Assembly (NCBI RefSeq): GCF_964019385.1
Contig: NC_088646.1
Coordinates: 254,410-318,409, forward strand
Direction: 5' to 3'
Length of the DNA: 64,000 nucleotides
Origin: Sycon ciliatum
Taxonomy: Eukaryota > Porifera > Calcarea > Leucosolenida > Sycettidae
The stretch's first letter is position 1; every line of letters begins with the position of its first letter. The notes under the pieces were generated by a model. That model saw only the letters and a list, made by a program, of their open reading frames with translations. It was not told the origin of the DNA and did no database searches. A program made the position numbers and the translations under genes. Below are positions 16,541-45,354 of the stretch, one piece after another.

Positions 16541-26753
<10,213 letters not shown>

Positions 26754-27975: not shown

Positions 27976-29903
27976 GACAGTACAGTACCCTGACCCATAA
28001 CCACAGTTGCATGCGCTTGTTTATGGACTCTTCATACTTGTAATACAATCATGTGCAATACATTGCACTGTAGTATGCCTGTGTTTCCTGCCTCATACAG
28101 TCATAGCTGTCCTAAAGCCATGCAGCTACATGATGTAGCAACAGTTATAGCATGGACACAGTTCCATCAACCATCATCAGAAACCACACACACTATTCCA
28201 CTGATTCTGCTATTTCCTAAAATCACTAGCTACACATGTACATGTCCCCAAGAGTAAACGAAAGAGCTTGGAAGCTCAGGGCCCTACGCTATGCTTTTAT
28301 GCTTTTTTTTGCCTAGCTCATCGTACATGTTATTAGAACTGATGTAAATGTTTTATAGCCCACAATGCATGAGAAGCTTGGGTCCTCATGGTCCAAGGCA
28401 TGCAGTAAACATGCCTACAATGAGTCCATCTACATGAACTTCTAAATAAAATAATTTCAGAACAATGGCTGCCAGGCAACAATTCAAAGCTCAAACAGTG
28501 CACACTCATTGTACATAATTATTATGACGTACACAGCTCATGTACAAGTAGGCCATCATAGCTAGCAGAGTACCAAAACTTCAGAAAGTGAGTGCAACTC
28601 ATTGCGAACGACACAAAAAGAAAAGCACAGTACGTGTACAAGCTAAAATGTGCTGCAAAAGAAGTGGTTTGGATCAGTGAACACCAGCAGAATGCACAAC
28701 ATTCAAAATGAACAATGTTCCAAATAGATCACCAGAATGTGTGACTGAAAAGGAAACACACATCTGTGATGGCAGTAAAAGTAATTAGCTATGATGTTTG
28801 TATGTAGTGATGCACAATGTTCCATGACTAGTACCAAGAGTATAATATACTCTTGCTAGTACATGTAACTAGCACAGAACAAGGCTTTGTACTTTTGAGT
28901 AGTGAACTGTGCTCATGGGATGTATGGAGAAATAGACCTGATGAGATGAGCAGCATGAAGAAATATGACTTAAAATTGTATCAGAAAGCACACAAACTTG
29001 ATCACCAGCCAACGTACATTGGACAAGTACAGACACAAGGTTCATTCAAGTGACTGGTAGTGGCATAAGTAACTGTTACTGGGCAAGGCTGGGTTGGGCT
29101 GCTCCTAAACCAAGGTTGAACTTTTTTAGGAGCCAACTAATTGATTGCAAGCAGTGCACGTCATCTCTGGAGTAGTGCTGCTACTGTTGCTGCAAACTGC
29201 AAATACTTGTCACATACACACACGTATGCTGCAAGTGGTATCAACAGGGCAGCACAACACAGAACCAGTCAGCATAGCTACCCGTTGAGTCCACACTGAG
29301 TACTGGCACATACACGTTGATTGGTCTAACACCATTGGCGGCCGGAGCAGTACAATGTCAACGCCTCTCCCAAACTCCTCTAGCTACTACTGGACACTTT
29401 GCGAGTGTCTTGAGATGTTTCTTTCACCAGTAAACGACATTGGCCAATAGCTGTAGACAAAACGTCACACAACATCACACAACACACAAACTACTAGTAA
29501 GCACACATGACAGCATTCCCACACATTCCCACACATTACTATATGCTCGTGCAAAGCTCGCTACGTTCATCACAATTAGAGCACTGTGACTTAGATGCGG
29601 GGAGCCAGGCTAAATATGCAGTTTGTTGTTCATTAGCCTTCATTGTGATCGATTCGGCCAGTAACTCTGGGCTTTGCTGAAGAGACCTAACAAGGTGAAA
29701 ACAGCTAGCTATCCGGAGATTGACTATAATTATGCTCATGTAACTACTACAGAAGTAGTGTAACAAATGATTGCCATCGTGTATACTGGTATTAGAAATG
29801 CACACCATCGCACCGATAACATACTTTGAAGTACATATACAAATTACTCCATCTCCGAGAAGCTAGCTATTACAACCTTCCTAGGTCTCCTCAGCGGAGC
29901 TTA

Positions 29904-30229
29904 GGGCCGGGTTCCATTGCGGCTCCGCTGCTCAACATCCGCGGCTTGAAACGTCATCATTACCATAGTGACCGCGGCTCAAGCTGGAGCAGCGAGGCCA
30001 CGGCTCACCGTGACCTTTCGCTACGATTCTTGATCAAAAACTGTTTCCCGTACTTTGCATTGTTTTGTACGCGAGAATTTTAAAATTCAAATTTTATTTC
30101 GTTGCGCAGGCCAGAACACGAGGTTTTTTTTATTTTGCGCCGCGAATGACGAGTGTCAGTGGAACCGCGCTGCTCCGCTACATGCAGCCAAGTGCCGCGG
30201 AGCAGCGGAGCCGCAGTGGAACCCGGCCC
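29904..30229. mobile_element. PIF/Harbinger-like MITE with TTA target duplication
   Basis: 326 bp, termini GGGCCGGGTTCCATTGCGGC and GCCGCAGTGGAACCCGGCCC, TTA at 29901-29903 and 30230-30232. The interior is rich in GCGGAGC/GCTCCGC words. No transposase. Confidence 0.85.
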
Positions 30230-30548
30230 TTAGAGTCACATGTACAAATTATGTAGCATTCCTAGTGTGCATAACACACAGGTAAGTTAAAACCCAATCC
30301 GCTACAGCCTGGTAATAGTGAGGTTCTCTGAGCTCCGATGAGATCTAACAAGGTCGAAACAATCAGCAATGATCAACTAATAATAACTATTGCACATGTG
30401 GGGTAACCAAGGCAACACATCACGACAGCCACCGTTTTTAAAGGTAGAGTTGCGCTATGGACCTTAGACACAGATTTCACGGATACTGAACTGACCGGCA
30501 CAGCCTGCTCATGGAAACTGAACTGACCAGTGTTAGTCTTGGTCATAT

Positions 30549-30591
30549 GCTGTCTGATGAAGTGTTCTGACACGAAACTCGGAGTAACAGC
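30549..30591 (+). ncRNA. Hammerhead ribozyme motif (variant 2)
   Basis: Read 5'-3': stem I GCTGT, core CTGATGA, stem II GTGT-loop-ACAC, core GAAA, mini stem III CT-CGG-AG, cleavage dinucleotide TA, stem I ACAGC. All invariant core bases are present, and stems I and II pair perfectly. Short stem III is typical of retroelement hammerheads. It is followed at 30631 by a TATG tract, as are the other copies in this cluster. Confidence 0.75.
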
Positions 30592-30630
30592 GGAATGAGA
30601 CTTGTTTGATTCATTGCTGTGTAATATTTG

Positions 30631-30658
30631 TATGTATGTATGTATGTATGTATGTATG

Positions 30659-30688
<30 letters not shown>
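30631..30688. repeat. (TATG)n microsatellite
   Basis: About 14 copies of TATG. The same tetranucleotide recurs at 30884-30966, 34469-34494, 34945-35042, 35145-35190, 36728-36766, 43174-43191 and 44624-44650, always at a retroelement or ribozyme-unit boundary. Confidence 0.97.
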
Positions 30689-30690
<2 letters not shown>

Positions 30691-30757
30691 CTCGGAGGGA
30701 GTTGTGGTTGCTCGTGAGAGTGCTCAATACACCAAGGTGCAGAGCCTAGTACACACA

Positions 30758-30885
30758 CTTGAGAGGGACGAAAAGCGTTTCTTCTGTAACTCTGAGTTTC
30801 ACGGTTTTAAAGTTGCTGTCTGATGATCGATTAAAACCGTGAAACTCAGAGTTACAGAAGAAACGCTTTTCGTCCCTCTCAAGTG
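30758..30885. repeat. Inverted repeat, 52-bp arms, with a degenerate hammerhead in the right arm
   Basis: The arm beginning ACTTGAGAGGGACGAAAAGC is repeated in inverse orientation around a 23-nt spacer. On the plus strand at 30816-30857 the spacer and right arm give CTGT, CTGATGA, a weak 2-bp stem II, GAAA, CTCAGAG, TT and ACAG. That is a hammerhead layout with a poor stem II. The arm shares GAAACTCAGAGTTACA with the main ribozyme family. TATG tracts bound it on both sides. Confidence 0.7.
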
Positions 30886-30966
30886 TATGTATGTATGTAT
30901 GTATGTATGTATGTATGTATGTATGTATGTATGTATGTATGTATGTATGTATGTATGTATGTATGT
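30884..30966. repeat. (TATG)n microsatellite at the 3' end of Penelope-like copy A
   Basis: About 20 pure copies, running directly into TACATAGCAGACTC, the 3' terminus of the minus-strand element. Confidence 0.97.
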
Positions 30967-30999
30967 ACATAGCAGACTCAGCGGAGGACGTTCAGGTTG

Positions 31000-31043
31000 G
31001 TTGTAACTCTGAGTTTCATGCCGCTAGGCAATCATCAGACAAC
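31000..31043 (-). ncRNA. Hammerhead ribozyme (variant 1), copy A 3' region
   Basis: On the minus strand: GTTGT / CTGATGA / stem II TGCC-TAGC-GGCA / GAAA / CT-CAG-AG / TT / ACAAC. The predicted cleavage is after TT. Sequence is identical in the core to the copies at 34333, 36797, 39497, 40338 and 43039. Confidence 0.85.
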
Positions 31044-31425
31044 TGATACTCGGGCCTACCCAACAGTATGCTTATAAACATAGAGCCACAAGCATAAACA
31101 AATTTAGCGCTAAATCTGGTGTGAGGTATGGGGAGAAAGCTAGCGCGGGCCAAGGCGCGACAGGGGAAGTGCCAGGATGGTGGCGGGCAACAGGCAGGTG
31201 TGAGCATGAAAGCGCGGAAAGAGGCGATGGGGAGGCAGTGTACAGCAGATGGGTGGAGGTGCCAGGAGGGTGGCGGGCAATGGGCCAGTGAGATCGCTAC
31301 AAGTAGGGAGTCGTTTGGTGACGGGCAGGCGTGAGCAGAGTGGCATCGCCGACTACAGGCCAAGGGATTTTTGTTATTAATAATAATGGGTGCTCAGGCA
31401 AAGTGCAGTACAGTACTTGGTCAGT

Positions 31426-33537
31426 TCATTTGATAGGTGTGAAATTTGCGAGGCGGAACTTATTCTCGTGCCTGCATTTCGAGACCATCTCGGACCGCTT
31501 GTTGAGTAGGAGCTTCTTGGGTGTAGTCAGGATGTGGAATTTTTCCGCGGTACAAAGATTGCATTTTTTTGACTCACATCTGTATGATCGGCTCTTCTCC
31601 CGCACCTTCCATGTAATGGTCAACGGCTTTCCCTCGCTCTTCAGCTCCCATACGTGTTTTGCGAGCTCAGTGCTGTTTTTGTATTTTTCATGACGCATGG
31701 AGGTCAGGTGGTTGGCGTGACGGGCTTTGAAAGGTGTCTCTGATAGGCCGATGTAAATCTTGCTGGTAGATTCTGCAGTGGCCTCATACACAATCTCCTT
31801 CGTCTGGCACTCTCCGCGCAGCGGGCAGGATTCCTTGATTCTACAGTTGCATGCCTTGGTTTGTTCTGGCTCTCGGAGGTTGCTCTTGTTGTGGCTGCTG
31901 ATGACCGCTCCCATGTTGGGCATGCAACTGTAGCTCACTTTCAGAGTGTTACGGTTGAAAATCTTCCCGAGCTTGGATGCTTTCGGGAAGTGCCTGGAGA
32001 CAAGGCTCAGGAACCTACCAGCGACGTTTGTGCTAACGTTTTTGGAGTAGGGAGGGTTGAACCATATGATCTTCCGGCTGCGGTTCTTCCTGCCCATGTG
32101 CTCATGTGCCTCGGGCTGAAAGCTCAGCACTTCGGTGTATCCACTGGCCTTTAATGCGGTCTGGTACACGGGGGCTGCATGGTTGAATGCCTCCGCGTCG
32201 CTCGATATAGCGGAAAGGCGCTTGTTGACAGCAGCAGGGATGTTGTTGGTGATCCCAGGCGGGTGGTTGGACTGCTTGCTGACGTAGAGCGGGTTGTCAT
32301 TTGGTTTTCGAAAGGGTTGAAATTTCCCGGTGTCCAGGTTCATGGTGACATCCAGGAAATCCACCACCTTCAAGTTCGCTTCGATGGTAATTTTGAGGTC
32401 GAAGCGCTTGAAGATTTCCGTCAACTTTTTTCTGAGGCGGTCTGCAGCCTGTGGGCTGGTGTCCTTGAGGGCGGCCAGTCCATCGTCTCTGTAGAGGCCG
32501 ATAGCGGATCTATCGACGAGGCTTGAGAGCTGGTTGAGAAGAAAGGCTCCCACAAGTTCGCACGTCTCGGCGCCATCGTAACTTCCCATTGTTACGTCGA
32601 ACATGTCGCCCTTGTCCTTCATCCAGGGGCGGCCATCGTGGAATAGGAGCGATTTCCGGGCGTGAAAGATGATGTCCATTTCACGCGGCTCGATCGTGGT
32701 GAATTGCTCCGCGAACGATAAGGCCTGACGGAGGAGCTGCTCACCAATTGACGGGTAGAATTCTACCACGTCAAAGCATAGGAACGTGTGGCGCTGTTTG
32801 TCGGGTATCTCCTTGAACCACTCGATCACTGACATGGTGCTCCTCCATAGGTTCACGGCCGTTTGGCGACGCACAGCAGCCACGATCTTCTCCAGTATAG
32901 CCTTGCTCACCACACCCACCTCCGATTTGGCTGGGTTAATGAGTCTGCAGGGCAGCGCTCTAGCGAAGTTGTTTTTGTGGTCTTTCAGTGTTATAAATGC
33001 TTCCGACTTAGCCAGTACATCCATCCTGTTTTGAAGATCTAGATCCTCTGCGATCTCCTTCGCCTCGCTGTTGACTTCATCGTAAGCATTCTCAGGCGCG
33101 ATCTTGTAGTTTTTGGTGATGTTCTCCTTCATCAGCTTGCTGTATTGCTCTTTTGGTACTTGGTACAAATTCCGGGTTTTATCGGCTTTCACGATGATGT
33201 CTTTAGAGTTTTTGATCGTTTTGGTGTCTTTTCTCATAGTGTCTTGGAGGCTGTCTGATACTTGGCGGAAGCTGACCGTTTCAGCCACGCCAATGAGGTC
33301 CTCTTCGAAGGCCTTCAGTTCATCGACTTGCGGAGGACACGTCCTGCTTCTGAAGCCGAAGCGTTCTGGTTGCTCCTCTTCGCGTTCCTCACCATTGAGG
33401 TAGAAGAAGGCAGCCCACCTCATACGCTTGATGACTTGCTCAATCCTGTCAATCAGACATTTCCGGTACTGCTTGGGTGACGGTAGAGGGATGTTCTTCA
33501 GGGAATATCCAAGTTGCATTGGCCTTGAAGCGTCCAT
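31426..33537 (-). CDS. Penelope-like polyprotein: reverse transcriptase and GIY-YIG endonuclease (copy A)
   Basis: 703 codons, intact. The frame is open for 35 further codons to an upstream ATG at 33642, but copies B and C start at the MDASRP methionine, which is preferred. Approximate residue positions: IIVKADKTRNLY (114-125; counterpart of the N-terminal DKG-type motif of Penelope-like RTs), LKDHK (184-188), CFDVVEFYPSI (254-264; palm motif A), GLYRDDGL (347-354; catalytic DD), a Cys cluster CNC..C..C (563-577), KIYIGLSETPFKAR (593-606; GIY-YIG core), E665 and N679 as the usual GIY-YIG acidic and Asn residues, and KCRHENKF near the end. The order RT then C-terminal endonuclease is the canonical endonuclease-positive arrangement. 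Reverse transcription and target cutting are inferred from the family. Confidence 0.9.
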   Translation of the reverse strand: MDASRPMQLGYSLKNIPLPSPKQYRKCLIDRIEQVIKRMRWAAFFYLNGEEREEEQPERFGFRSRTCPPQVDELKAFEEDLIGVAETVSFRQVSDSLQDTMRKDTKTIKNSKDIIVKADKTRNLYQVPKEQYSKLMKENITKNYKIAPENAYDEVNSEAKEIAEDLDLQNRMDVLAKSEAFITLKDHKNNFARALPCRLINPAKSEVGVVSKAILEKIVAAVRRQTAVNLWRSTMSVIEWFKEIPDKQRHTFLCFDVVEFYPSIGEQLLRQALSFAEQFTTIEPREMDIIFHARKSLLFHDGRPWMKDKGDMFDVTMGSYDGAETCELVGAFLLNQLSSLVDRSAIGLYRDDGLAALKDTSPQAADRLRKKLTEIFKRFDLKITIEANLKVVDFLDVTMNLDTGKFQPFRKPNDNPLYVSKQSNHPPGITNNIPAAVNKRLSAISSDAEAFNHAAPVYQTALKASGYTEVLSFQPEAHEHMGRKNRSRKIIWFNPPYSKNVSTNVAGRFLSLVSRHFPKASKLGKIFNRNTLKVSYSCMPNMGAVISSHNKSNLREPEQTKACNCRIKESCPLRGECQTKEIVYEATAESTSKIYIGLSETPFKARHANHLTSMRHEKYKNSTELAKHVWELKSEGKPLTITWKVREKSRSYRCESKKCNLCTAEKFHILTTPKKLLLNKRSEMVSKCRHENKFRLANFTPIK

Positions 33538-33640
33538 AGCTAGCTTGCAGTGTAGGGGTAGAGTGCTCGACTGGGTAAAGCCAGGAGCGTAGACGAATCC
33601 GTTGATCCCCGAGCTGCAGAGAGTGCTCAATGTCAGAGAC

Positions 33641-34466
33641 ACCTTTCAAAGCCCGTCACGCCAACCACCTGACCTCCATGCGTCATGAAAAATACAAAAA
33701 CAGCACTGAGCTCGCAAAACACGTATGGGAGCTGAAGAGCGAGGGAAAGCCGTTGACCATTACATGGAAGGTGCGGGAGAAGAGCCGATCATACAGATGT
33801 GAGTCAAAAAAATGCAATCTTTGTACCGCGGAAAAATTCCACATCCTGACTACACCCAAGAAGCTCCTACTCAACAAGCGGTCCGAGATGGTCTCGAAAT
33901 GCAGGCACGAGAATAAGTTCCGCCTCGCAAATTTCACACCTATCAAATGAACTGACCAAGTACTGTACTGCACTTTGCCTGAGCACCCATTATTATTAAT
34001 AACAAAAATCCCTTGGCCTGTAGTCGGCGATGCCACTCTGCTCACGCCTGCCCGTCACCAAACGACTCCCTACTTGTAGCGATCTCACTGGCCCATTGCC
34101 CGCCACCCTCCTGGCACCTCCACCCATCTGCTGTACACTGCCTCCCCATCGCCTCTTTCCGCGCTTTCATGCTCACACCTGCCTGTTGCCCGCCACCATC
34201 CTGGCACTTCCCCTGTCGCGCCTTGGCCCGCGCTAGCTTTCTCCCCATACCTCACACCAGATTTAGCGCTAAATTTGTTTATGCTTGTGGCTCTATGTTT
34301 ATAAGCATACTGTTGGGTAGGCCCGAGTATCAGTTGTCTGATGATTGCCTAGCGGCATGAAACTCAGAGTTACAACCAACCTGAACGTCCTCCGCTGAGT
34401 CTGCTATGTACTAAGCTCTGTCTCTGACATTGAGCACTCTCTGCAGCTCGGGGATCAACGGATTCG
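33641..34466 (+). mobile_element. Penelope-like element, copy D (5'-truncated)
   Basis: Plus-strand fragment starting inside the GIY-YIG domain at SETPFKARHAN. It keeps the last ~100 codons to the stop near 33950, then the complete pseudo-LTR with hammerhead (34333-34376), ending ...GGGGATCAACGGATT before a TATG tract. It is the inverted partner of copy A. Confidence 0.9.
34333..34376 (+). ncRNA. Hammerhead ribozyme (variant 1), copy D
   Basis: Same 44-nt structure as at 31000-31043, here on the plus strand: paired GTTGT/ACAAC, stem II TGCC/GGCA, intact CTGATGA and GAAA. Confidence 0.85.
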
Positions 34467-34494
34467 ATTATGTATGTATGTATGTATGTATGTA

Positions 34495-34943
34495 CAGTCA
34501 GACCTCGCTTAACCGCACACATCTGTTTTCCATAAAAATATCCGGATAGGCGAGGGAACCGGATAACTGAACACACATACTGGATATGTATGTGACATGT
34601 CAAAAGCAGTGGCATCGTACATACATGTAGACGGGTCCTATGCCGTACAACTGGCGTGCACAGTATGTAAAACAAGCGAGAAAAATGACAAGTGCATGCA
34701 ACTGAGTGCTATCCGCATGCATCCAGCAGGTCAAGGACCTCATTTGCTTCTGCAACCGGATACGACAAAGCTTTTTTGTACACATTTTAACCAGTTTGTA
34801 CACAAAATCATGCACCGGCATGCGGATCGGGAGGTCCGGTTATGTTGTATGCATAACATATGCTGCACATCGGTAACCAGCGATTTTCTTCCGGATGGCG
34901 AGGGATCCGGATAAACGAGGACCGGATAAGCGAGGTCTGACTG
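34495..34943. mobile_element. pogo/Tigger-like MITE inserted in a TATG tract
   Basis: 449 bp, termini CAGTCAGACCTCGCTTAACC and a right end GGATAAGCGAGGTCTGACTG, TA on both sides, with TATG repeat on both flanks. It is the full-length relative of the fragment at 1-66. Interior words CCGGATAA/TTATCCGG are typical of such elements. The short frames across it are not genes. Confidence 0.85.
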
Positions 34944-34944
34944 T

Positions 34945-35190
34945 ATGTACGTATGTATGTATGTATGTATGTATGTATGTATGTATGTATGTATGCATGT
35001 ACATGTATGTATGTATGTATGTATGTATGTATGTATGTATGTGTGGAAATTTTTATTTTCATTGCTATCAGGTTCGGCCTCATTTCCTCTGTGCTGCGCT
35101 GATGAGTTCACAAAGAACGAAACAGCATGCTGTCCGCAGATTGAGTATGTATGTATGTATGTATGTATGTATGTATGTACGTATGTATGT
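34945..35190. repeat. Two (TATG)n tracts bracketing a 100-bp ribozyme unit
   Basis: TATG runs lie at 34945-35042 and 35145-35190. The sequence between them (35043-35144) is not repeat; it holds a hammerhead motif (separate entry). The second tract leads into the 5' end of a LINE. Confidence 0.95.
35087..35145 (+). ncRNA. Hammerhead ribozyme (variant 3) with canonical GUC site
   Basis: Read 5'-3': CTC, internal loop TGTG, CTGCG, core CTGATGA, stem II GTTC-ACAAA-GAAC, GAAA, stem III CAG-CATG-CTG, TC, CGCAG, loop ATT, GAG. Stem I is 5 bp plus a second 3-bp helix beyond an internal loop. Stems II and III pair perfectly, and cleavage would follow GTC. This is the best-formed hammerhead in the window. 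No coding sequence is attached; the unit stands alone between TATG tracts. Confidence 0.85.
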
Positions 35191-36727
35191 TGGCAAGCTG
35201 TGTGGTCGCCTGTTACAAAACCGCCTGCAGTTGATTGCAAACCGTGAGCTTCCTGAATCTCAGTGTGGGTTTCGACCAGGTCACGGCTGTATGGATGCTG
35301 TTTTCTCCGTATGCCAACTTGTGGTGAAGTCGTTTGAACACCGGCAGCAGACATTCTGCATCTTTGTGGACCTCTGCTAAAGCTTGGTGTACCTCCCAGC
35401 CTCGTCTCCCTCATTGAGTCCTTCCATACCAACATGGAGGCTACCGTACGAGTTGCTGGTGAGTCCTCTGGCACGATTCATGTGCGGAATGGCCTGAGGC
35501 AAGGCTGTGTGATGGCACCCGTTTTGTTTAATCTGTTCTTCAGGTTGGTCATGGAGCGTTGGCGTGAGACTTTGGCTGAGCGTGACATCGATGCTGGTGT
35601 GTCCTTCCGTCATGTCGATGGTAACCTTTTCCCGCGTTCTGTTCGACGAGCACAGTCGACGGTGGCTACAGACTTTGAATATGCTGATGATGCTGTGCTA
35701 CTTGCGTCTTCTCTCGCCGTGCTGCTGAGGATTGTCTAGTTGTTTTCTATGACGTAGCGGCTTCGTTTGGTCTGTCCGTAAGCATCCCCAAAACGAATTT
35801 ATCATTGCGGGTCATTTTGCTTCTGAGGCGGATTGTGCCCCCATCCTGGTTGCTGGCGACCAAGTCGAGTGTGTACCGTCTTTTGTATATCTTGGAAGCG
35901 TCATCACACCTGACACCAGATCCTGTCATGACGTCGCTCGGGATCGCTGGGGAGATCCCATTGCGCTATCGGAGAAGATCCGGCATCGGCGCCTCGAATG
36001 GCTTGGTCATGTTGTATGCCTTGAACCTGAGCGTGCGCCGCGACAGCTCTTGTTTGGGTCCCTGGAAACGACCCGGCCTGCCCAGGGTCCTCGTTGGCGC
36101 TGGAAGGATGTGTTGCGTGGCGACCTCCAACATCTTCCAAACTGGTTTGACGTGGCCTCGGAGAGGTCTGAATGGTGCCAGTTTGTGCATGCACCACCTT
36201 CATCGAAGCCAGCACCTGCTCGCGTGGAATGCACCGTATGCCGCAGAACATTTGCAAAGCCGCACTACATGGCTCGTCACAAGTGTACCGCTGAGAAGAG
36301 GATGCCCATCCATCTCCAGCGTGGTGCACTCCAAAGTGATATCTGCAGCAGATGGTTTGCCAGCGCTGGAGGCCGTGCTGTCCACAAGTGCACCCGCAGT
36401 ACGATCAGCACCCAAGCTCGCCCGCCCTCGTCTAGTCGAGAGTCGATTCTCCTGGACAGTGGCAAACTCCAAAGCTCAATGTGCCAACGCCAGTTTTCGC
36501 CATCCGGTTTTAAGCGGCACAAATGCAGCCGTGGCAGTCGCCCTACTTGTAAACAGAGGGAAACCTTCGAATATGAGTGCCGGCTCTGCAACAAACGTTT
36601 TCGGCTTCCACGAGATCTCAACCGGCATGTGGCTCGCCAGCATGGACTCTCTTACCTTGACTCTGGCTCCCTGTCACAAGGGAGTGACATGGCCCTATGG
36701 GGCAGTCATGCTAAAAATTTAAAAAAA
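35190..36727 (+). mobile_element. Degenerate LINE with C-terminal zinc fingers, copy 1
   Basis: Pieces in order: RT motif ESQCGFRPGHGCMDAVF (about 35260), LRQGCVMAPVLFNLFF (about 35490), FEYADDAVLLASS (about 35680), FVYLGSVITPD (about 35880), then the C-terminal region RRLEWLGHVV...PRWRWKDVLR and zinc fingers of the type C-X2-C-X12-H-X-C plus one classical C2H2, to about 36690. The frame breaks several times (near 35380, 35740 and 36050), so it is dead. It ends in an A-rich tail followed by TATG repeats. Clade is uncertain: an endonuclease-RT LINE of the kind common in aquatic invertebrates. Confidence 0.8.
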
Positions 36728-36766
36728 ATGTATGTATGTACGTATGTATGTATGTATGTATGTACA
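36728..36766. repeat. (TATG)n microsatellite
   Basis: Short TATG/TACG tract that joins the A-rich tail of the LINE at its left to the 3' terminus of Penelope-like copy B at its right. Confidence 0.95.
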
Positions 36767-36796
36767 TAGCAGACTCAGCGGAGGACGTTCAGGTTG

Positions 36797-36840
36797 GTTG
36801 TAACTCTGAGTTTCATGCCGCTAGGCAATCATCAGACAAC
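36797..36840 (-). ncRNA. Hammerhead ribozyme (variant 1), copy B downstream pseudo-LTR
   Basis: Same 44-nt motif and stems as at 31000-31043. Confidence 0.85.
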
Positions 36841-37237
36841 TGATACTCGGGTCTACCCAACAGTATGCTTATAAACACATAGGGCCACAAGCATAAACAA
36901 ATTTAGCGCTAAATCTGGTGTGAGGTATGGGGAGAAAGCTGGCGCGGGCCAAGGCGCGACAGTGGAAGTGCCAGGAGGGTGGCGGGCAACAGGCAGGTGT
37001 GAGCATGAAAGTGCGGAAAGAGGCGATGGGGAGGCAGTGTACAGCAGATGTGTGGGGGGAGGGTGGGGGTGCCAGGAGGGTGGCGGGCAATGGCCCAGTG
37101 AGATCACTACAAGTAGGGAGTCGTTTGGTGACGGGCAGGCGTGAGCAGAGTGGCATCGCCAACAACAGGCCAAGGGATTGTGTTATTAATAATAATAATG
37201 GGTGCTCAGGCAAAGTGCAGTACAGTACTTGGTCAGT

Positions 37238-39349
37238 TCATGTGATAGGTGTGAAATTTGCGAGGCGGAACTTATTCTCATGCCTGCATTTCGAGACCAT
37301 CTCAGACCGCTTGTTGAGTAGGAGCTTCTTGGGTGTAGTCAGGATGTGGAATTTTTCCGCGGTACAAAGATTGCATTTTTTTGACTCACATCTGTATGAT
37401 CGGCTCTTCTCCCGCACCTTCCATGTGATGGTCAACGGCTTTCCCTCGCTCTTCAGCTCCCATACGTGTTTTGCGAGCTCAGTGCTGTTTTTGTATTTTT
37501 CATGACGCATGGAGGTCAGGTGGTTGGCGTGACGGGCTTTGAAAGGTGTCTCTGATAGGCCGATGTAAATCTTGCTGGTAGATTCTGCAGTGGCCTCATA
37601 CACAATCTCCTTCGTCTGGCACTCTCCGCGCAGCGGGCAGGATTCCTTAATTCTGCAGTTGCATGCCTTGGTTTGTTCTGGCTCTCGCAGGTTGCTCTTG
37701 TTGTGGCTGCTGATGACCGCTCCCATGTTGGGCATACAACTGTAGCTCACTTTCAGAGTGTTACGGTTAAAAATCTTCCCGAGCTTGGATGTTTTCGGGA
37801 AGTGCCTGGAGACAAGGCTCAGGAACCTACCAGCGACGTTTGTGCTAACGTTTTTGGAGTAGGGAGGGTTGAACCATATGACCTTCCGGCTGCGGTTCTT
37901 CCTGCCCCTGCGCTCATGTGCCTCGGGCTGAAAGTTCAGCACTTCGGTGTATCCACTGGCCTTTAATGCGGTCTGGTACACGGGGGCTGCATGGTTGAAT
38001 GCCTCCGCGTCGCTCGATATAGCAGAAAGGCGCTTGTTGACAGCAGCAGGGATGTTGTTGGTAATCCCAGGCGGGTGGTTGGACTGCTTGCTGACGTAGA
38101 GCGGGTTGTCATTGGGCTTTCGGAAGGGTTGAAATTTCCCGGTGCCCAGGTTCATGGTGACATCCAGGAAATCCACCACCTTCAAGTTCGCTTCGATGGT
38201 AATTTTTAGGTCGAAGCGCTTGAATATTTCCGTCAGCTTTTTTCTGAGGCGGTCTGCAGCCTGTGGGCTGGTGTCCTTGAGGGCGGCCAGTCCATCGTCT
38301 CGGTAGAGGCCGATAGCGGATCTACCGACGAGGCTTGAGAGCTGGTTGAGAAGAAAGGCCCCCACAAGTTCGCACGTCTCGGCGCCATCGTAACTTCCCA
38401 TTGTTACGTCAAACATGTCGCCCTTGTCCTTCATCCAGGGGCGGCCATCGTGGAATAGGAGCGATTTCCGGGCGTGAAAGATGATGTCCATTTCACGCGG
38501 CTCGATCGTGATGAATTGCTCCGCGAACGATAAGGCCTGACGGAGGAGCTGCTCACCAATTGACGGGTAGAATTCTACCACGTCAAAGCATAGGAACGTG
38601 TGGCGCTGTTTGTCGGGTATCTCCTTGAACCACTCGATCACTGACATGGTGCTCCTCCATAGGTTCACGGCCGTTTGGCGACGCACAGCAGCCACGATCT
38701 TCTCCAGTATAGCCTTGCTCACCACACCCACTTCCGATTTTGCTGGGTTAATGAGTCTGCAGGGCAGCGCCCTAGCGAAGTTGTTTTTGTGGTCTTTCAG
38801 TGTTATAAATGCCTCCGACTTAGCCAGTACATCCATCCTGTTTTGAAGATTTAGATCCTCTGCGATCTCCCTCGCCTCGCTGTTGACTTCATCGTAAGCA
38901 TTCTCAGGCGCGATCTTGTAATTTTTGGTGATGTTCTCCCTCATCAGCTTGCTGTATTGCTCTTTTGGTACTTCGTACAAATTCCGGGTTTTATCGGCTT
39001 TCACGATGATGTCCTTAGAGTTTTTGATCGTTTTGGTGTCTTTTCTCATAGTGTCTTGGAGGCTGTCTGATACTTGGCGGAAGCTGACAGTTTCAGCCAC
39101 GCCAATGAGGTCCTCTTCGAAGGCCTTCAGTTCATCGACTTGCGGAGGACACGTCCTGCTTCTGAAGCCGAAGCGTTCTGGTTGCTCCTCTTCGCGTTCC
39201 TCGCCATTGAGGTAGAACAAGGCAGCCCACCTCATACGCTTGATGACTTGCTCAATCCTGTCAATTAGACATTTCCGGTACTGCTTGGGTGAAGGTAGAG
39301 GGATATTCTTCAGGGAATATCCCAGTTGCATTGGCCTTGAAGCGTCCAT
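37238..39349 (-). CDS. Penelope-like polyprotein, copy B (intact, 703 aa)
   Basis: Same domain order as copy A, with all catalytic signatures present: KADKTRNLY, FDVVEFYPSI, LYRDDGL, the Cys cluster, IYIGLSE and the C-terminal KCRHENKF. Compared with copy C I see four substitutions: G for D in MNLDTGK, MP for IS in YSCISNM, and H for R in KARRANH. The two inverted copies are therefore near-identical but not identical. Confidence 0.92.
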   Translation of the reverse strand: MDASRPMQLGYSLKNIPLPSPKQYRKCLIDRIEQVIKRMRWAALFYLNGEEREEEQPERFGFRSRTCPPQVDELKAFEEDLIGVAETVSFRQVSDSLQDTMRKDTKTIKNSKDIIVKADKTRNLYEVPKEQYSKLMRENITKNYKIAPENAYDEVNSEAREIAEDLNLQNRMDVLAKSEAFITLKDHKNNFARALPCRLINPAKSEVGVVSKAILEKIVAAVRRQTAVNLWRSTMSVIEWFKEIPDKQRHTFLCFDVVEFYPSIGEQLLRQALSFAEQFITIEPREMDIIFHARKSLLFHDGRPWMKDKGDMFDVTMGSYDGAETCELVGAFLLNQLSSLVGRSAIGLYRDDGLAALKDTSPQAADRLRKKLTEIFKRFDLKITIEANLKVVDFLDVTMNLGTGKFQPFRKPNDNPLYVSKQSNHPPGITNNIPAAVNKRLSAISSDAEAFNHAAPVYQTALKASGYTEVLNFQPEAHERRGRKNRSRKVIWFNPPYSKNVSTNVAGRFLSLVSRHFPKTSKLGKIFNRNTLKVSYSCMPNMGAVISSHNKSNLREPEQTKACNCRIKESCPLRGECQTKEIVYEATAESTSKIYIGLSETPFKARHANHLTSMRHEKYKNSTELAKHVWELKSEGKPLTITWKVREKSRSYRCESKKCNLCTAEKFHILTTPKKLLLNKRSEMVSKCRHENKFRLANFTPIT

Positions 39350-39496
39350 AGCTAGCTTGCAGTGTAGGGGTAGAGTGCTCGACTGGGTAAGGCCAGGAGC
39401 GTAGACAAAATCCGTTGATCCCCGAGCTGCAGAGAGTGCTCAATGTCAGAGACAGAGCTTAGTACATAGCAGACTCAGCGGAGGACGTTCAGGTTG

Positions 39497-39540
39497 GTTG
39501 TAACTCTGAGTTTCATGCCGCTAGGCAATCATCAGACAAC
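39497..39540 (-). ncRNA. Hammerhead ribozyme (variant 1), copy B upstream pseudo-LTR
   Basis: Same 44-nt motif. It lies upstream of the ORF, so a transcript starting in this pseudo-LTR could be cut here to define its 5' end; that is inference from the family. Confidence 0.85.
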
Positions 39541-40337
39541 TGATACTCGGGTCTACCCAACAGTATGCTTATAAACACATAGGGCCACAAGCATAAACAA
39601 ATTTAGCGCTAAATCTGGTGTGAGGTATGGGGAGAAAGCTGGCGCGGGCCAAGGCGCGACAGTGGAAGTGCCAGGAGGGTGGCGGGCAACAGGCAGGTGT
39701 GAGCATGAAAGTGCGGAAAGAGGCGATGGGGAGGCAGTGTACAGCAGATGTGTGGGGGGAGGGTGGGGGTGCCAGGAGGGTGGCGGGCAATGGCCCAGTG
39801 AGATCACTACAAGTAGGGAGTCGTTTGGTGACGGGCAGGCGTGAGCAGAGTGGCATCGCCAACAACAGGCCAAGGGATTGTGTTATTAATAATAATAATG
39901 GGTGCTCAGGCAAAGTGCAGTACAGTACTTGGTCAGTTCATGTGACCAAGTACTGTACTGCACTTTGCCTGAGCACCCATTATTATTATTAATAACACAA
40001 TCCCTTGGCCTGTTGTTGGCGATGCCACTCTGCTCACGCCTGCCCGTCACCAAACGACTCCCTACTTGTAGTGATCTCACTGGGCCATTGCCCGCCACCC
40101 TCCTGGCACCCCCACCCTCCCCCCACACATCTGCTGTACACTGCCTCCCCATCGCCTCTTTCCGCACTTTCATGCTCACACCTGCCTGTTGCCCGCCACC
40201 CTCCTGGCACTTCCACTGTCGCGCCTTGGCCCGCGCCAGCTTTCTCCCCATACCTCACACCAGATTTAGCGCTAAATTTGTTTATGCTTGTGGCCCTATG
40301 TGTTTATAAGCATACTGTTGGGTAGACCCGAGTATCA

Positions 40338-40381
40338 GTTGTCTGATGATTGCCTAGCGGCATGAAACTCAGAGTTACAAC
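40338..40381 (+). ncRNA. Hammerhead ribozyme (variant 1), copy C upstream pseudo-LTR
   Basis: GTTGT 40338-40342, CTGATGA 40343-40349, TGCC 40351-40354, GGCA 40359-40362, GAAA 40364-40367, mini stem III 40368-40374, TT 40375-40376, ACAAC 40377-40381. Confidence 0.87.
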
Positions 40382-40529
40382 CAACCTGAACGTCCTCCGC
40401 TGAGTCTGCTATGTACTAAGCTCTGTCTCTGACATTGAGCACTCTCTGCAGCTCGGGGATCAACGGATTTTTGTCTACGCTCCTGGCCTTACCCAGTCGA
40501 GCACTCTACCCCTACACTGCAAGCTAGCT

Positions 40530-42641
40530 ATGGACGCTTCAAGGCCAATGCAACTGGGATATTCCCTGAAGAATATCCCTCTACCTTCACCCAAGCAGTA
40601 CCGGAAATGTCTAATTGACAGGATTGAGCAAGTCATCAAGCGTATGAGGTGGGCTGCCTTGTTCTACCTCAATGGCGAGGAACGCGAAGAGGAGCAACCA
40701 GAACGCTTTGGCTTCAGAAGCAGGACGTGTCCTCCGCAAGTCGATGAACTGAAGGCCTTCGAAGAGGACCTCATTGGCGTGGCTGAAACTGTCAGCTTCC
40801 GCCAAGTATCAGACAGCCTCCAAGACACTATGAGAAAAGACACCAAAACGATCAAAAACTCTAAGGACATCATCGTGAAAGCCGATAAAACCCGGAATTT
40901 GTACGAAGTACCAAAAGAGCAATACAGCAAGCTGATGAGGGAGAACATCACCAAAAATTACAAGATCGCGCCTGAGAATGCTTACGATGAAGTCAACAGC
41001 GAGGCGAGGGAGATCGCAGAGGATCTAAATCTTCAAAACAGGATGGATGTACTGGCTAAGTCGGAGGCATTTATAACACTGAAAGACCACAAAAACAACT
41101 TCGCTAGGGCGCTGCCCTGCAGACTCATTAACCCAGCAAAATCGGAAGTGGGTGTGGTGAGCAAGGCTATACTGGAGAAGATCGTGGCTGCTGTGCGTCG
41201 CCAAACGGCCGTGAACCTATGGAGGAGCACCATGTCAGTGATCGAGTGGTTCAAGGAGATACCCGACAAACAGCGCCACACGTTCCTATGCTTTGACGTG
41301 GTAGAATTCTACCCGTCAATTGGTGAGCAGCTCCTCCGTCAGGCCTTATCGTTCGCGGAGCAATTCATCACGATCGAGCCGCGTGAAATGGACATCATCT
41401 TTCACGCCCGGAAATCGCTCCTATTCCACGATGGCCGCCCCTGGATGAAGGACAAGGGCGACATGTTTGACGTAACAATGGGAAGTTACGATGGCGCCGA
41501 GACGTGCGAACTTGTGGGGGCCTTTCTTCTCAACCAGCTCTCAAGCCTCGTCGGTAGATCCGCTATCGGCCTCTACCGAGACGATGGTCTGGCCGCCCTC
41601 AAGGACACCAGCCCACAGGCTGCAGACCGCCTCAGAAAAAAGCTGACGGAAATATTCAAGCGCTTCGACCTAAAAATTACCATCGAAGCGAACTTGAAGG
41701 TGGTGGATTTCCTGGATGTCACCATGAACCTGGACACCGGGAAATTTCAACCCTTCCGAAAGCCCAATGACAACCCGCTCTACGTCAGCAAGCAGTCCAA
41801 CCACCCGCCTGGGATTACCAACAACATCCCTGCTGCTGTCAACAAGCGCCTTTCTGCTATATCGAGCGACGCGGAGGCATTCAACCATGCAGCCCCCGTG
41901 TACCAGACCGCATTAAAGGCCAGTGGATACACCGAAGTGCTGAACTTTCAGCCCGAGGCACATGAGCGCAGGGGCAGGAAGAACCGCAGCCGGAAGGTCA
42001 TATGGTTCAACCCTCCCTACTCCAAAAACGTTAGCACAAACGTCGCTGGTAGGTTCCTGAGCCTTGTCTCCAGGCACTTCCCGAAAACATCCAAGCTCGG
42101 GAAGATTTTTAACCGTAACACTCTGAAAGTGAGCTACAGTTGTATCTCCAACATGGGAGCGGTCATCAGCAGCCACAACAAGAGCAACCTGCGAGAGCCA
42201 GAACAAACCAAGGCATGCAACTGCAGAATTAAGGAATCCTGCCCGCTGCGCGGAGAGTGCCAGACGAAGGAGATTGTGTATGAGGCCACTGCAGAATCTA
42301 CCAGCAAGATTTACATCGGCCTATCAGAGACACCTTTCAAAGCCCGTCGCGCCAACCACCTGACCTCCATGCGTCATGAAAAATACAAAAACAGCACTGA
42401 GCTCGCAAAACACGTATGGGAGCTGAAGAGCGAGGGAAAGCCGTTGACCATCACATGGAAGGTGCGGGAGAAGAGCCGATCATACAGATGTGAGTCAAAA
42501 AAATGCAATCTTTGTACCGCGGAAAAATTCCACATCCTGACTACACCCAAGAAGCTCCTACTCAACAAGCGGTCTGAGATGGTCTCGAAATGCAGGCATG
42601 AGAATAAGTTCCGCCTCGCAAATTTCACACCTATCACATGA
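40530..42641 (+). CDS. Penelope-like polyprotein, copy C (intact, 703 aa)
   Basis: The ATG at 40530 follows an in-element leader that starts near 40425. Domains are as described for copy A: N-terminal region with KADKTRN at about 117-123, RT palm with D256 and D351/D352, a Cys cluster at 563-577, and the GIY-YIG domain from 583 with Y595-I-G597, R606, E665 and N679. No stop or frameshift. With copies A and B this makes three intact ORFs in 11 kb, which implies recent activity. Confidence 0.92.
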   Translation: MDASRPMQLGYSLKNIPLPSPKQYRKCLIDRIEQVIKRMRWAALFYLNGEEREEEQPERFGFRSRTCPPQVDELKAFEEDLIGVAETVSFRQVSDSLQDTMRKDTKTIKNSKDIIVKADKTRNLYEVPKEQYSKLMRENITKNYKIAPENAYDEVNSEAREIAEDLNLQNRMDVLAKSEAFITLKDHKNNFARALPCRLINPAKSEVGVVSKAILEKIVAAVRRQTAVNLWRSTMSVIEWFKEIPDKQRHTFLCFDVVEFYPSIGEQLLRQALSFAEQFITIEPREMDIIFHARKSLLFHDGRPWMKDKGDMFDVTMGSYDGAETCELVGAFLLNQLSSLVGRSAIGLYRDDGLAALKDTSPQAADRLRKKLTEIFKRFDLKITIEANLKVVDFLDVTMNLDTGKFQPFRKPNDNPLYVSKQSNHPPGITNNIPAAVNKRLSAISSDAEAFNHAAPVYQTALKASGYTEVLNFQPEAHERRGRKNRSRKVIWFNPPYSKNVSTNVAGRFLSLVSRHFPKTSKLGKIFNRNTLKVSYSCISNMGAVISSHNKSNLREPEQTKACNCRIKESCPLRGECQTKEIVYEATAESTSKIYIGLSETPFKARRANHLTSMRHEKYKNSTELAKHVWELKSEGKPLTITWKVREKSRSYRCESKKCNLCTAEKFHILTTPKKLLLNKRSEMVSKCRHENKFRLANFTPIT

Positions 42642-43038
42642 ACTGACCAAGTACTGTACTGCACTTTGCCTGAGCACCCATTATTATTATTAATAACACA
42701 ATCCCTTGGCCTGTTGTTGGCGATGCCACTCTGCTCACGCCTGCCCGTCACCAAACGACTCCCTACTTGTAGTGATCTCACTGGGCCATTGCCCGCCACC
42801 CTCCTGGCACCCCCACCCTCCCCCCACACATCTGCTGTACACTGCCTCCCCATCGCCTCTTTCCGCACTTTCATGCTCACACCTGCCTGTTGCCCGCCAC
42901 CCTCCTGGCACTTCCACTGTCGCGCCTTGGCCCGCGCCAGCTTTCTCCCCATACCTCACACCAGATTTAGCGCTAAATTTGTTTATGCTTGTGGCCCTAT
43001 GTGTTTATAAGCATACTGTTGGGTAGACCCGAGTATCA

Positions 43039-43082
43039 GTTGTCTGATGATTGCCTAGCGGCATGAAACTCAGAGTTACAAC
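43039..43082 (+). ncRNA. Hammerhead ribozyme (variant 1), copy C downstream pseudo-LTR
   Basis: Same 44-nt motif as the upstream pseudo-LTR. Confidence 0.85.
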
Positions 43083-43173
43083 CAACCTGAACGTCCTCCG
43101 CTGAGTCTGCTATGTACTAAGCTCTGTCTCTGACATTGAGCACTCTCTGCAGCTCGGGGATCAACGGATTTTG

Positions 43174-43191
43174 ATGTATGTATGTATGTAT
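43174..43191. repeat. (TATG)n microsatellite
   Basis: Short tract between the 3' end of Penelope-like copy C and the 5' end of the next LINE. Confidence 0.9.
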
Positions 43192-43192
43192 T

Positions 43193-43473
43193 ACTTTGCC
43201 AGCAACGTCGAGGAGTGATATCCCACGCCAGTTATCGCATAACGTCAAATTGCCCTTCTTAGGAATCGGGACCAAAACGGCATCCTTCCACTCCTGTGGA
43301 ACTTCACCCGCCTGAAAGCAGTCAACCGCAAGCTCATGTAGCTTGGAGACGAGCATCGGGCCACCGTATTTCAGTAGTTCGGGCAAAATACCAGAGTATC
43401 CAGGTGCCTTCCTGTTTTGCAGAGTCCCAAGGGCCTTGCGGACTTCCTCAATTGTTGGCACCCCTGCGCACAT
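43193..43473 (-). pseudogene. Inverted 5' segment of LINE copy 2 (RT fingers region)
   Basis: On the minus strand an open frame encodes EEVRKALGTLQNRKAPGYSG, LPELLKYGGPMLVSKLHELA, PQEWKDAVLVPIPKKG and CDNWRGISLLDVAGKVI. This is the N-terminal part of a LINE RT (motifs 0 to 1). It is directly followed on the opposite strand by the C-terminal part of a LINE of similar type, so it is the inverted 5' portion of one insertion. Confidence 0.85.
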
Positions 43474-44623
43474 CAGCAGATGACGTGCAGCATGTCACTG
43501 AGTTTACCTACCTTGGTTGCCTCATAACACCTGATGGCACAACATCTGCAGACGTCACCCATCGCATAGCTGCAGCCTCCAAAGCTTTCGGACGCCTCCG
43601 TAAGCCAGTCTTACACAACAGAGATTTACCGGTCTCCACGAAACGTAATGTATACACAGCCACTGTTCTCTCAGCATTGCTGTATGGCTCTGAAACCTGG
43701 ACACCCCTGCAGCGGGATGTGCGTCGTTTGGAAGTATTCCACAACCAATGCTTGCGGACTATATTTGGCATCAGCGGAAAGAGGCAGCAAGAGGAACGCT
43801 TGTTCTCATCCACAGTCCGAACGTGGTGGGGTGATACCGAGCTAGTTACAGAGAAGATTATGTTTTGCAGACTGACTTGGCTTGGTCATGTTATCCGCAT
43901 GTCGCCCGAACGCTTGCCACGGCTACTCCTGTTCGGTTCACTGACCCAGACGCGACCTCAACACAAGCCCAAGAAGCGGTGGAAAGATGCAATCCGTGCT
44001 GACCTCAAGATGGCCAATGTCAAGGAGAGAGACTTGTGTGATGCAACCAGCTGCCGGAGTACTTGGAGGTCAGAATGCCGTGAAGCTGTTGCTTGCGCGC
44101 ACCGCACCAGGACTGAGCACAAGATCAAGCCGGTCCTGTGCGACACCTGCGGCCGGAGTTTCTCTCAGCCCCGCTACATGGCGCGTCACAAGTGCACAGT
44201 GGAGCGAGCAAAGCCGGTGAGAGAGCAGTCTGGGTCTGTTCAGTGTAATGCGTGCGGCCGCTGGCTCCTATCTCGTGGGGGCTTGGCGAACCATCGGTGC
44301 GGCAATGATCCAGCTCATTCCCTCAGCCAGCCTCGACGGCAGCAACAACAACAGAAACCGCCAGCAGTTCGAGACGGGGCAGGTTTGACGTGCCTTGTAT
44401 GCCAGCGAACCTTCACGTCCATCAGTGAAAGGACTCGACACAAGTGCAAACTGACTGACATCCAAACTACAGCGGCACCACCCCTGGAGTGCTCCACCTG
44501 TCACCGGACCTTCCGCTCGACTAGCGGCCGGACACACCACCGATGCGGCAGGGTGACTAGTACCATTTGACTTGTCCCTTCGGGGACTGCGTAGCCAGAC
44601 TTGGCAGCAGGATCAAGATCAAG
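43474..44623 (+). mobile_element. LINE copy 2, 3' segment with four zinc-knuckle-like fingers
   Basis: Frame 43484-44570 starts in the RT thumb region (FTYLGCLITPDGTTSADVTH, VLSALLYGSETWTPLQRDVR, FCRLTWLGHVIRMSPERLPR). It continues through KKRWKDAIRADLK into four fingers of spacing C-X2-C-X12-H-X-C (about 44140, 44240, 44395 and 44490). The catalytic YADD block is missing between this and the inverted segment. The 3' end meets a TATG tract at 44624. Confidence 0.85.
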
Positions 44624-44644
44624 ATGTATGTATGTATGTATGTA

Positions 44645-44683
<39 letters not shown>

Positions 44684-44690
44684 TGTGTAT
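44624..44690. repeat. (TATG)n followed by (GT)n
   Basis: TATG at 44624-44650 grading into GT, at the 3' end of LINE copy 2. Confidence 0.93.
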
Positions 44691-44769
44691 GTGTGTTGGC
44701 CTGGACGGCTGGGGACACCCCAGGTGGGGTATTCTGAGGTGGGGTATTCACCCCTGAGGTGGGGTATTC

Positions 44770-45118
44770 ACCGACAGAAGACTTGGTCGGATAGTTACGA
44801 TGCTGACACTCTCCTCGTCGCCCCCACCTCGGAGTCCTTCGCGAGGCTTTGCAAGCCCGCGAGTGGAGCAAATTACCGCACGAAGACGACGACTTGGAAC
44901 GACTCTGAGCGTTGGCTCATGGAATGTTCGCTCTGTTGTGGAGAGTGATGGACCAGTTCTAGCGGCAGCCGTGAGAGGAATCGTTTCCGATGATAAGCCA
45001 GAGCCATAGCTGCTGGAGATGGCTCTCTCGAACATGGTCCCGCTCGTCGTTCTATATTGTCGGCCCCGTAAGGGGACACGTGACCGTAATGGCAGTGTTT
45101 ACCAGGACCAGGACCAGG
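44770..45118 (+). mobile_element. LINE endonuclease-start fragment
   Basis: The frame at about 44800-45009 contains LSVGSWNVRSVVES, the typical first strand of an APE-type LINE endonuclease. It stops after about 40 more residues without further conserved blocks. Probably a 5' piece of a LINE; the family is unknown. Confidence 0.45.
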
Positions 45119-45212
45119 GTATGTGTGTGCATGTGTGTGTGTGTTTGTGTGTATACATGTGAGTACACATGTATACTGGCACTTTACTACAGTACATCTT
45201 CTTATGTTCTGT

Positions 45213-45322
45213 ATGGTTGAGTGGGTAGGGAATTTGGTTGAGTGGGTAGGGAATTTGGTTGAGTGGGTAGGGAATTTGGTTGAGTGCGTAGGGAATTTGG
45301 TTGAGTGGGTAGGGAATTTGAT
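45213..45322. repeat. 21-bp tandem repeat, five copies
   Basis: GAGTGGGTAGGGAATTTGGT repeats; it lies just downstream of the CDK2AP exon donor (minus strand). Confidence 0.9.
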
Positions 45323-45354
45323 GTGCACACGACTAAGGTCATAAGTGTACTTAC

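Follow-up and report, generated by a model that had tools for sequence, protein, structure and literature searches.

In the genome of the calcareous sponge Sycon ciliatum (NCBI RefSeq assembly GCF_964019385.1), the hammerhead ribozymes of a 64,000-nucleotide (nt) stretch of contig NC_088646.1 (positions 254,410 to 318,409, forward strand; the whole stretch is referred to as the window, and positions are counted from its first nt) are accompanied by a cassette of two hairpins, which is shared by Penelope-like elements (PLEs) and by retrozymes. This cassette, the covariation of its stems, its occurrence in PLEs and retrozymes alike, the positions of the insertion ends next to it and the lengths of the target duplications are established at the level of the sequence, from searches of this single genome (538 Mb, 313 contigs). 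It is likely that the hairpins seat a dimer of the PLE protein and that the retrozymes borrow the PLE machinery.

The cassette was noticed as the motif GAGCACT downstream of ribozymes in unrelated families, with GCTC and a variable stem upstream of it. Its order is hammerhead, site 1, hairpin 1, site 2, hairpin 2 and then either the PLE start codon or the rest of the retrozyme unit of ~230 nt. The hairpins downstream of the cleavage site have the form GCUC-stem-loop-stem'-UU-GAGC-ACU, as seen for hairpin 1 of the families PLE1 (GCTC-TGTC-TCT-GACA-TT-GAGCACTCT), PLE2 (GCTC-TGTCC-AGT-GGACA-TT-GAGCACTGT) and retrozyme A (GCTC-CTGCT-CTTGT-AGCAG-TT-GAGCACTCT), where it starts 43, 52 and 17 nt, respectively, after the predicted cut (three families measured). 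Hairpin 2 is present in PLE1, PLE2, PLE5 (loci L151 and L161) and PLE6 (L154), and also in retrozymes A, B and C, such that both hairpins are carried by seven families (four PLE, three retrozyme). The spacing from GAGC to GAGC is 62, 65, 64 and 59 nt in PLE1, PLE2, PLE5 and PLE6, and 67, 65 and 67 nt in retrozymes A, B and C, which keep the hairpin pair with no room for an open reading frame (ORF). In the same four PLE families, the start codon follows hairpin 2 (when measured to the end of GAGCACTNT) after 22, 20, 22 and 17 nt. This position, 17 to 22 nt before the start codon, would suit an element of transcription or translation, such as an internal promoter or a structure of the 5' untranslated region, which the retrozymes keep through descent from PLE leaders; retrozymes need transcription as well, and such descent would account for the sharing. 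This explanation is nevertheless quite unlikely, as the retrozymes, having no room for an ORF, possess both hairpins at equal spacing, and as it accounts neither for the ending of insertions immediately 5' of the hairpins nor for the use of one site per arm in the head-to-head insertions described below.

The pairing of the hairpins is preserved through sequence changes. In a set of 47 hairpins whose contexts are less than 75% identical, the stems were defined by the GCTC/GAGC anchors, independently of pairing; 85.1% of their inner positions are paired, compared with 48.8% (sd 3.6) after shuffling of the 3' strands and with at most 61.7% in 5,000 shuffles. This set includes several variants of retrozyme A and a few GAGCACT sites that are not hairpins. 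It is the fairer test, because the 20 PLE hairpins of alignment A2 and the 19 hammerheads of alignment A3, on which the covariance model R2 was also trained, were chosen by hand from larger sets. In alignment A2, 26 cells are changed on both sides versus 8.0 in the shuffles and the covariation score is 0.455 versus 0.160; neither value is reached by any of 500 shuffles. When the PLE1 leader is folded without constraints, both hairpins form, with the 2-nt bulge, in the minimum-energy as well as the centroid structure, and hairpin 1 also forms in the fold of the retrozyme A unit (z -2.42).

Throughout the genome, the pattern of a hammerhead followed by the motif (CCTGANGA..GAAA..GAGCACT, with the motif 60-90 nt after the hammerhead) has 560 matches, compared with 7 for its built-in reversed control, and the hammerhead with the reverse-complemented motif has 36 (reversed control, 10). 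The hairpin-pair pattern has 4,059 matches versus 35 for the control, many forward retrozyme A sites being counted twice in this number, as hairpin 1 has GCTC twice there. It is extremely unlikely that this enrichment merely reflects how many copies a few repeat families have: both counts are dominated by high-copy families and overlapping matches are counted twice, but the 47 diverged hairpins keep their pairing through changes and both hairpins recur in seven families. From 100 listed matches of the 560, 40 loci were picked by hand as distinct-looking, with GAGCACT as a selection criterion, and the fixed position of the motif is tested free of such selection only in a motif-blind sample, for which hammerheads alone were searched (809 matches, control 0) and every fifth of 100 listed matches was taken (27 hammerheads at 20 loci). 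The exact motif is found for 10 of these 27 hammerheads, always at an offset of 63-67, and for one more with a mismatch, whereas the control motif is found for none of the 27. The covariance model R1, which was trained on PLE hairpins only, finds both hairpins of retrozyme A (hairpin 1 at 31.6-36 bits, hairpin 2 at 24.7-25.2 bits) and, in retrozyme B, hairpin 1 (24.4 bits). In the negative set of 80 viral contigs (L166-L245), which are those listed for a looser IMG/VR pattern, R1 finds nothing at E<=1. Beyond this genome, the search for the cassette in IMG/VR yields two contigs with one common phage-like stretch and no hammerhead, and a slightly stricter pattern yields nine stretches in 257 Gb of prokaryote genomes, as examined by R1 only.

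In the window the cassette is seen in two insertions of PLE1, which has pseudo-long terminal repeats (pseudo-LTRs) containing the hammerhead, inverted copies and a tail at a single end. Copy A (30965-34464, minus strand) is an element with an inverted 3' arm on the plus strand, as found by self-BLAST and by reading the ends; its arms of 779 bp, which span 30965-34411, are 100% identical, the left end is tailless and the right end is tailed. Its hammerheads are at 31000-31043 (-) and 34333-34376 (+), hairpin 1 is in the tail of the plus arm (34411-34443, +; R1 38.8 bits), hairpin 2 (33557-33592, -; 34.1 bits) is located 5' of the ORF, and this stop-to-stop ORF for a reverse transcriptase (RT) with a GIY-YIG-like part (31426-33537, -) is 97.9% identical to the ORF of copy B. 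Copy B (36762-43170) consists of two complete units of pseudo-LTR, ORF and pseudo-LTR, placed head to head as a palindrome of 6.36 kb (36762-43117; arms 99.7% identical), again with a tailless left and a tailed right end. The minus arm has hammerheads at 36797-36840 and 39497-39540, hairpin 1 at 39430-39462 (38.8 bits), hairpin 2 at 39369-39404 (34.4 bits) and an open frame for the RT with the GIY-YIG-like part at 37241-39349. In the plus arm, the hammerhead at 40338-40381 has its predicted cut at 40376/40377, hairpin 1 (40416-40448; 38.8 bits) has its GCTC at 40420 and PLE1 end 1 just before it at 40411-40419, and hairpin 2 (40475-40510; 34.4 bits) has its GCTC at 40479 and PLE1 end 2 at 40469-40472; both hairpins are found in the minimum-energy and centroid folds of 40338-40530. 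There follow the ORF of 703 amino acids (40530-42641), a further hammerhead (43039-43082) and, in the tail, hairpin 1 once more (43117-43149; 38.8 bits). All these R1 scores are for a family in the training set. The six hammerheads, located by the descriptor scan and by R2, are the identical 44-nt copies of variant 1 listed by the original prediction at these same places; they are present in PLE pseudo-LTRs, as it had supposed, and they are not independent, coming from two insertions of one family.

The RT of PLE1 is, judged by its homologues, related to the RTs of PLEs. Among 7,996 scored sequences, 2,381 are homologues of the ORF at E<=1e-5, and in the 11 that were aligned (44-59% identity) the motif YRDDG is invariant, which we take to be a mark of PLE RTs. 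No Pfam family is found at E<=1e-3 for the PLE1 ORF of the window. The C-terminal part has a conserved stretch with Y-x-G and with R and H downstream; it is not recognized as GIY-YIG by Pfam in the window ORF, and the homologue P0002 carries PF01541, which is presumably the GIY-YIG family. Similar variants of PLE1 are clustered at 18.80-19.23 Mb of one contig (G000:C8), probably by segmental duplication.

The insertion ends map onto the cassette. Among the 59 listed PLE1 matches, which are best matches only and include some segmental duplicates from C8, 40 begin at the ribozyme; 24 of these stop at query positions 132-135 (site 2, just 5' of hairpin 2), four stop at 74-82 (site 1, just 5' of hairpin 1) and 12 run through. 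In the motif-blind sample, the 16 hammerheads without the motif belong to tailless arms, every one of which breaks off 3-11 nt short of the hairpin 1 position; only the closeness is informative here, as the references are cut at the hairpin start, and the alignments of L132 and L146 are weak. These 16 look like insertions ending at site 1. In all seven head-to-head pairs of this sample, one arm carries the tail and hairpin 1, and the other ends ahead of hairpin 1. One tailed and one tailless arm are also seen in three insertions in the window and in the seven PLE1 insertions that show both ends (L069-L071, L085-L088); these seven are the ones with scored tails among 20 loci fetched by similarity, and at L075 the left arm is tailed and the right end was not fetched. 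Among 15 close minus/plus hammerhead pairs (from 100 listed), exactly one arm is in the hammerhead-plus-motif list for 14; in the 15th pair one arm has the motif with one mismatch and the other was not fetched. This tally was made by eye from two lists, and only the seven motif-blind pairs were read as sequence.

It is unlikely that the head-to-head insertions arise by self-priming (fold-back) of one complementary DNA (cDNA), as was proposed for rotifer PLEs in 2013, and not by priming from both DNA ends. Passages of that work argue for self-priming on an antisense template (PMC3846280), and the spacer of the palindrome is only 0-1 nt in nine of the 10 mini-insertions. Fold-back is expected to generate the same end on both arms, yet a tailed and a tailless arm are combined in seven of seven pairs, and extension on both strands is reported in PMC11167929. 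As the sole source of the palindromes, fold-back is disfavoured by these unlike arm ends. In the mini-insertions L069-L071 and L139-L145, both arms begin at or near the 5' side of the hammerhead.

The retrozymes mostly end at site 1. In 36 of 44 deduplicated pieces of retrozyme A, whose loci were fetched with a query ending near site 1, the 3' end is at unit positions 50-56, and hairpin 1 is at 59. Seven of the 44 pieces (L046, L059, L060, L064, L065, L067 and L002) start at unit positions 118-119, with hairpin 2 at 127, and several of these end at site 1, which gives an insert of 162-165 bp without the stretch between the sites. Flank words of at least 10 bp are shared for 12 of 14 PLE and 19 of 33 retrozyme A insertions, compared with 3 of 182 and 28 of 1,056 mismatched flanks, and are read as target duplications; some long shared words are simple repeats. 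For the retrozyme, 33 of the 44 pieces entered the test; the 11 left out were fragmented or interrupted (two each of L002, L042, L060 and L062, and one each of L017, L028 and L054). The commonest length of the duplications is 13-14 bp in both cases (six of 12 for PLEs, nine of 19 for retrozyme A). These observations bear on the possibility that the retrozymes are moved by a long interspersed element (LINE) and that the shared cassette and duplication length are relics of PLE ancestry. LINE mobilization is left open as an alternative in the discussion of PMC7229834, and ORFs of the window resemble LINE remnants by eye. It is however very unlikely here, since the commonest duplication length of retrozymes equals that of PLEs and near-identical retrozyme copies end 3' at hairpin 1 (36 of 44), so that the signal looks recently used.

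A mechanism can be proposed that combines these features in terms of a PLE dimer seated on the hairpins, in which we infer protein binding, the roles of the protomers, the circularity of the template and mobilization in trans. In PLE units as in retrozymes, the 3' part is marked by the ribozyme, and each hairpin would be the docking site of one protomer of the PLE protein, the docked protomer starting reverse transcription a few nt upstream of its hairpin. In a PLE, the two protomers would prime from opposite sides of the staggered target cut, one at site 1 and the other at site 2, which would yield a head-to-head insert that has the tail at one end only and is flanked by a duplication of ~14 bp. 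The retrozymes carry the PLE cassette without an ORF, and the PLE protein could therefore copy them in trans, from circular or multimeric RNA made by the ribozyme, much as short interspersed elements (SINEs) use LINE enzymes. In a more specific form, Penelope-type reverse transcription would have its bipartite start signal in the duplicated hairpin beside the ribozyme, a dimer on one RNA would prime both sides of the cut and the retrozymes would be minimal parasites that keep the cassette on a ribozyme-made circle; we regard the chances of this form as evenly balanced. If true, this form accounts for the PLE 'tail' as well as for the inverted pseudo-LTRs.

Several observations weigh against a PLE dimer seated on the hairpins and serving retrozymes in trans. 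All evidence is from one genome, and insertion in vitro is independent of the ribozyme. The exact motif is absent for 17 of the 27 motif-blind hammerheads (in one it is mismatched; the other 16 seem to stop at site 1, short of the motif). In alignment A2, 5 pairs show a two-sided change versus 4.0 in the shuffles, which is at chance level (151 of 500 shuffles reach it), and the whole PLE1 leader folds no better than its shuffles (z -0.51). Hairpin 2 of retrozyme A is absent from the predicted fold of the unit, hairpin 1 of retrozymes B and C pairs at two of the four counted inner positions, and R1 misses the hairpins of retrozyme C and hairpin 2 of retrozyme B at E<=1. Single R1 matches near 24 bits prove little, because R1 has a match at E<=1 in eight of 11 contigs preselected by the pair pattern, with up to 24.6 bits. 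No 3' end at site 2 is found in the 44 retrozyme A pieces, and the inserts of retrozyme A have a single orientation, so they do not show the full PLE pattern.

Hammerheads in PLEs and in retrozymes are already known. The hairpin pair common to PLE families and ORF-less retrozymes appears to be new as far as searches of the open-access literature show. In the anole PLE, according to the main text of PMC11167929, both target strands are cut and extended, reverse transcription starts at two adjacent internal sites that bound the tail, a dimer is predicted and no difference in start site between the strands is reported there; an AC-rich stem loop is mentioned. In the rotifer PLE, the tail is optional on one inverted pseudo-LTR and self-priming is proposed, and in PMC3846280 the words 'hairpin' and 'stem-loop' do not occur. 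Reading the anole and rotifer work together, it would seem that each start site has its own hairpin, that one protomer is bound per hairpin and that the cDNAs from the two sites go to the two cut ends. As portrayed in these two sources, the Penelope/Poseidon PLEs with GIY-YIG resemble PLE1 in having an RT ORF with a C-terminal GIY-YIG-like part, pseudo-LTRs, a minimal hammerhead, an optional tail on one inverted end, a target duplication and an RNA-internal start of reverse transcription; the Sycon PLEs differ in that a cassette of two hairpins is defined by covariation and the ends are mapped onto it.

A link between PLEs and retrozymes was suggested earlier from shared ribozymes, tandem copies and co-occurrence, and PLEs were named a strong or likely candidate for mobilizing animal retrozymes, in passages of PMC7229834 and PMC7761336. 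The metazoan non-LTR retrozymes described in those passages are similar in their type I hammerhead, tandem units of 228-237 nt without room for an enzyme and duplications of more than 4 bp. Unlike these, the sponge retrozymes have a specific RNA cassette, an insertion end (site 1) and a commonest duplication length that are shared with PLEs. The sharing of tails between SINEs and LINEs is similar in that a non-autonomous element bears the recognition structure of its autonomous partner, but here a PLE would take the part of the partner, its recognition structure consists of two hairpins next to a self-cleaving ribozyme, and a circular or multimeric template is probable. The shared covarying cassette, the matching insertion end and the duplication length make PLE mobilization of animal retrozymes testable, both in further animal genomes and in vitro, and the sharing suggests a copying route for small enzyme-less elements. 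The cassette further provides a possible explanation of two peculiar PLE features, namely the single-end tail and the inverted pseudo-LTRs.

The hammerheads of the window are real by the measures of sequence and pairing, they come from several mobile-element families and their self-cleavage is predicted. The descriptor scan that gave the six variant-1 copies also recovers variant 2 (30548-30592) and variant 3 (35094-35139). The three variants of the original prediction are distinct hammerheads, but that description was incomplete, as they belong to three elements (PLE1, PLE2 and a 228-nt retrozyme). The original prediction also lacks the downstream hairpins, and it is these that make the locus unusual. 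The claim of covarying stems holds for type I hammerheads, with 29 cells changed on both sides versus 7.5 in shuffles of 19 hammerheads from other loci. In this alignment, 92.8% of the cells are paired, compared with 79.2% in the shuffles, and the covariation score is 0.454 versus 0.186; the paired cells, the two-sided changes and the score are each reached by none of 500 shuffles. Among 76 hammerhead-like strings from a looser scan, taken without selection and with false ones among them, stem I is paired at 73.0% and stem II at 75.4%, compared with 50.5% and 51.3%. The Rfam covariance search proposed as a check gives no window match at the gathering thresholds, which for Rfam is literally the outcome that had been named as refuting. 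The sole hammerhead match below threshold in 29000-46000 is variant 3 (HH9, 25.9 bits, compared with a cut-off of 52). Its family has a canonical type I hammerhead, as four relatives elsewhere in the genome (L001-L004; four of 21 matches) pass the RF00163 cut-off of 34 bits, the window copy itself being below the HH9 cut-off. Other sub-threshold Rfam matches in the window, to microRNAs, mostly track palindromes and microsatellites. The model R2, trained on the 19 hammerheads from other families with variants 1-3 excluded, gives 55.4 bits for each of the six variant-1 copies, 46.8 bits for 30815-30858, 39.6 bits for variant 2 and only 11.3 bits (E 0.49) for variant 3, because the latter is a hammerhead of the retrozyme type; its top score among 45 viral contigs is 16.5 bits.

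The remaining pieces lie next to (TATG)n arrays. PLE2 is represented by a 5'-truncated end with variant 2 (30531-30628, +), which ends at (TATG)n; it has at least 40 copies genome-wide, and near 10 of 29 further PLE2 loci a PLE-like protein is encoded, whose identity to PLE1 is 41-60% in most cases and 28% in one segment. The third family, PLE3, forms a head-to-head mini-insertion inside (TATG)n (30689-30884; inverted repeat 30750-30891) with a tailed minus arm and a tailless plus arm. Its hammerhead (30815-30858, +) had been called a weaker match; it is a true hammerhead and no weak chance match, belonging to this further PLE family. Its hairpin 1 is at 30714-30749 (-; R1 44.4 bits, the copy itself being in the training set). 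The retrozyme A fragment with variant 3 (35043-35145, +), also inside (TATG)n, stops at site 1 without the hairpins. Retrozyme A has at least 40 copies genome-wide, some as a 228-bp tandem, and the tandem units without protein genes (228 nt in retrozyme A, 237 nt in retrozyme B) fit the 150-450-nt size of retrozymes. As (TATG)n arrays adjoin the PLE1, PLE2, PLE3 and retrozyme A pieces, the hammerhead cluster is read as repeated insertion at one microsatellite, and the density that had been taken for a ribozyme cluster reflects nested insertion beside these arrays and no ribozyme array. A target specific for (TATG)n is rejected, such arrays being present at the ends of three of 30 variant-2 and three of 30 variant-3 loci, with the window copies counted.

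Elsewhere in the window, a decayed PLE end with a mutated hammerhead core is read at 12846-12887 (+; R2 41.4 bits), with GAGCACT ~60 nt downstream. Two weak matches of the hammerhead model, at 16722-16765 (-; 26.4 bits) and 18808-18852 (-; 22.2 bits), have no GAGCACT motif by eye within 170 nt downstream and are perhaps decayed copies. An element with inverted ends (CAGTCAGACCTCGCTTA... and ...CGAGGTCTGACTG) at 34495-34940, beside (TATG)n, resembles a small DNA transposon, and similar ends are also present beside retrozymes at L045 and L163. The long ORFs at 17121-18317 (-), 35191-36725 (+) and 43201-44570 (+) resemble remnants of LINE RTs or zinc-finger proteins by eye, and the open frame of 1293 amino acids at 57358-61239 (+) presumably resembles subunit 1 of the anaphase-promoting complex (APC/C).

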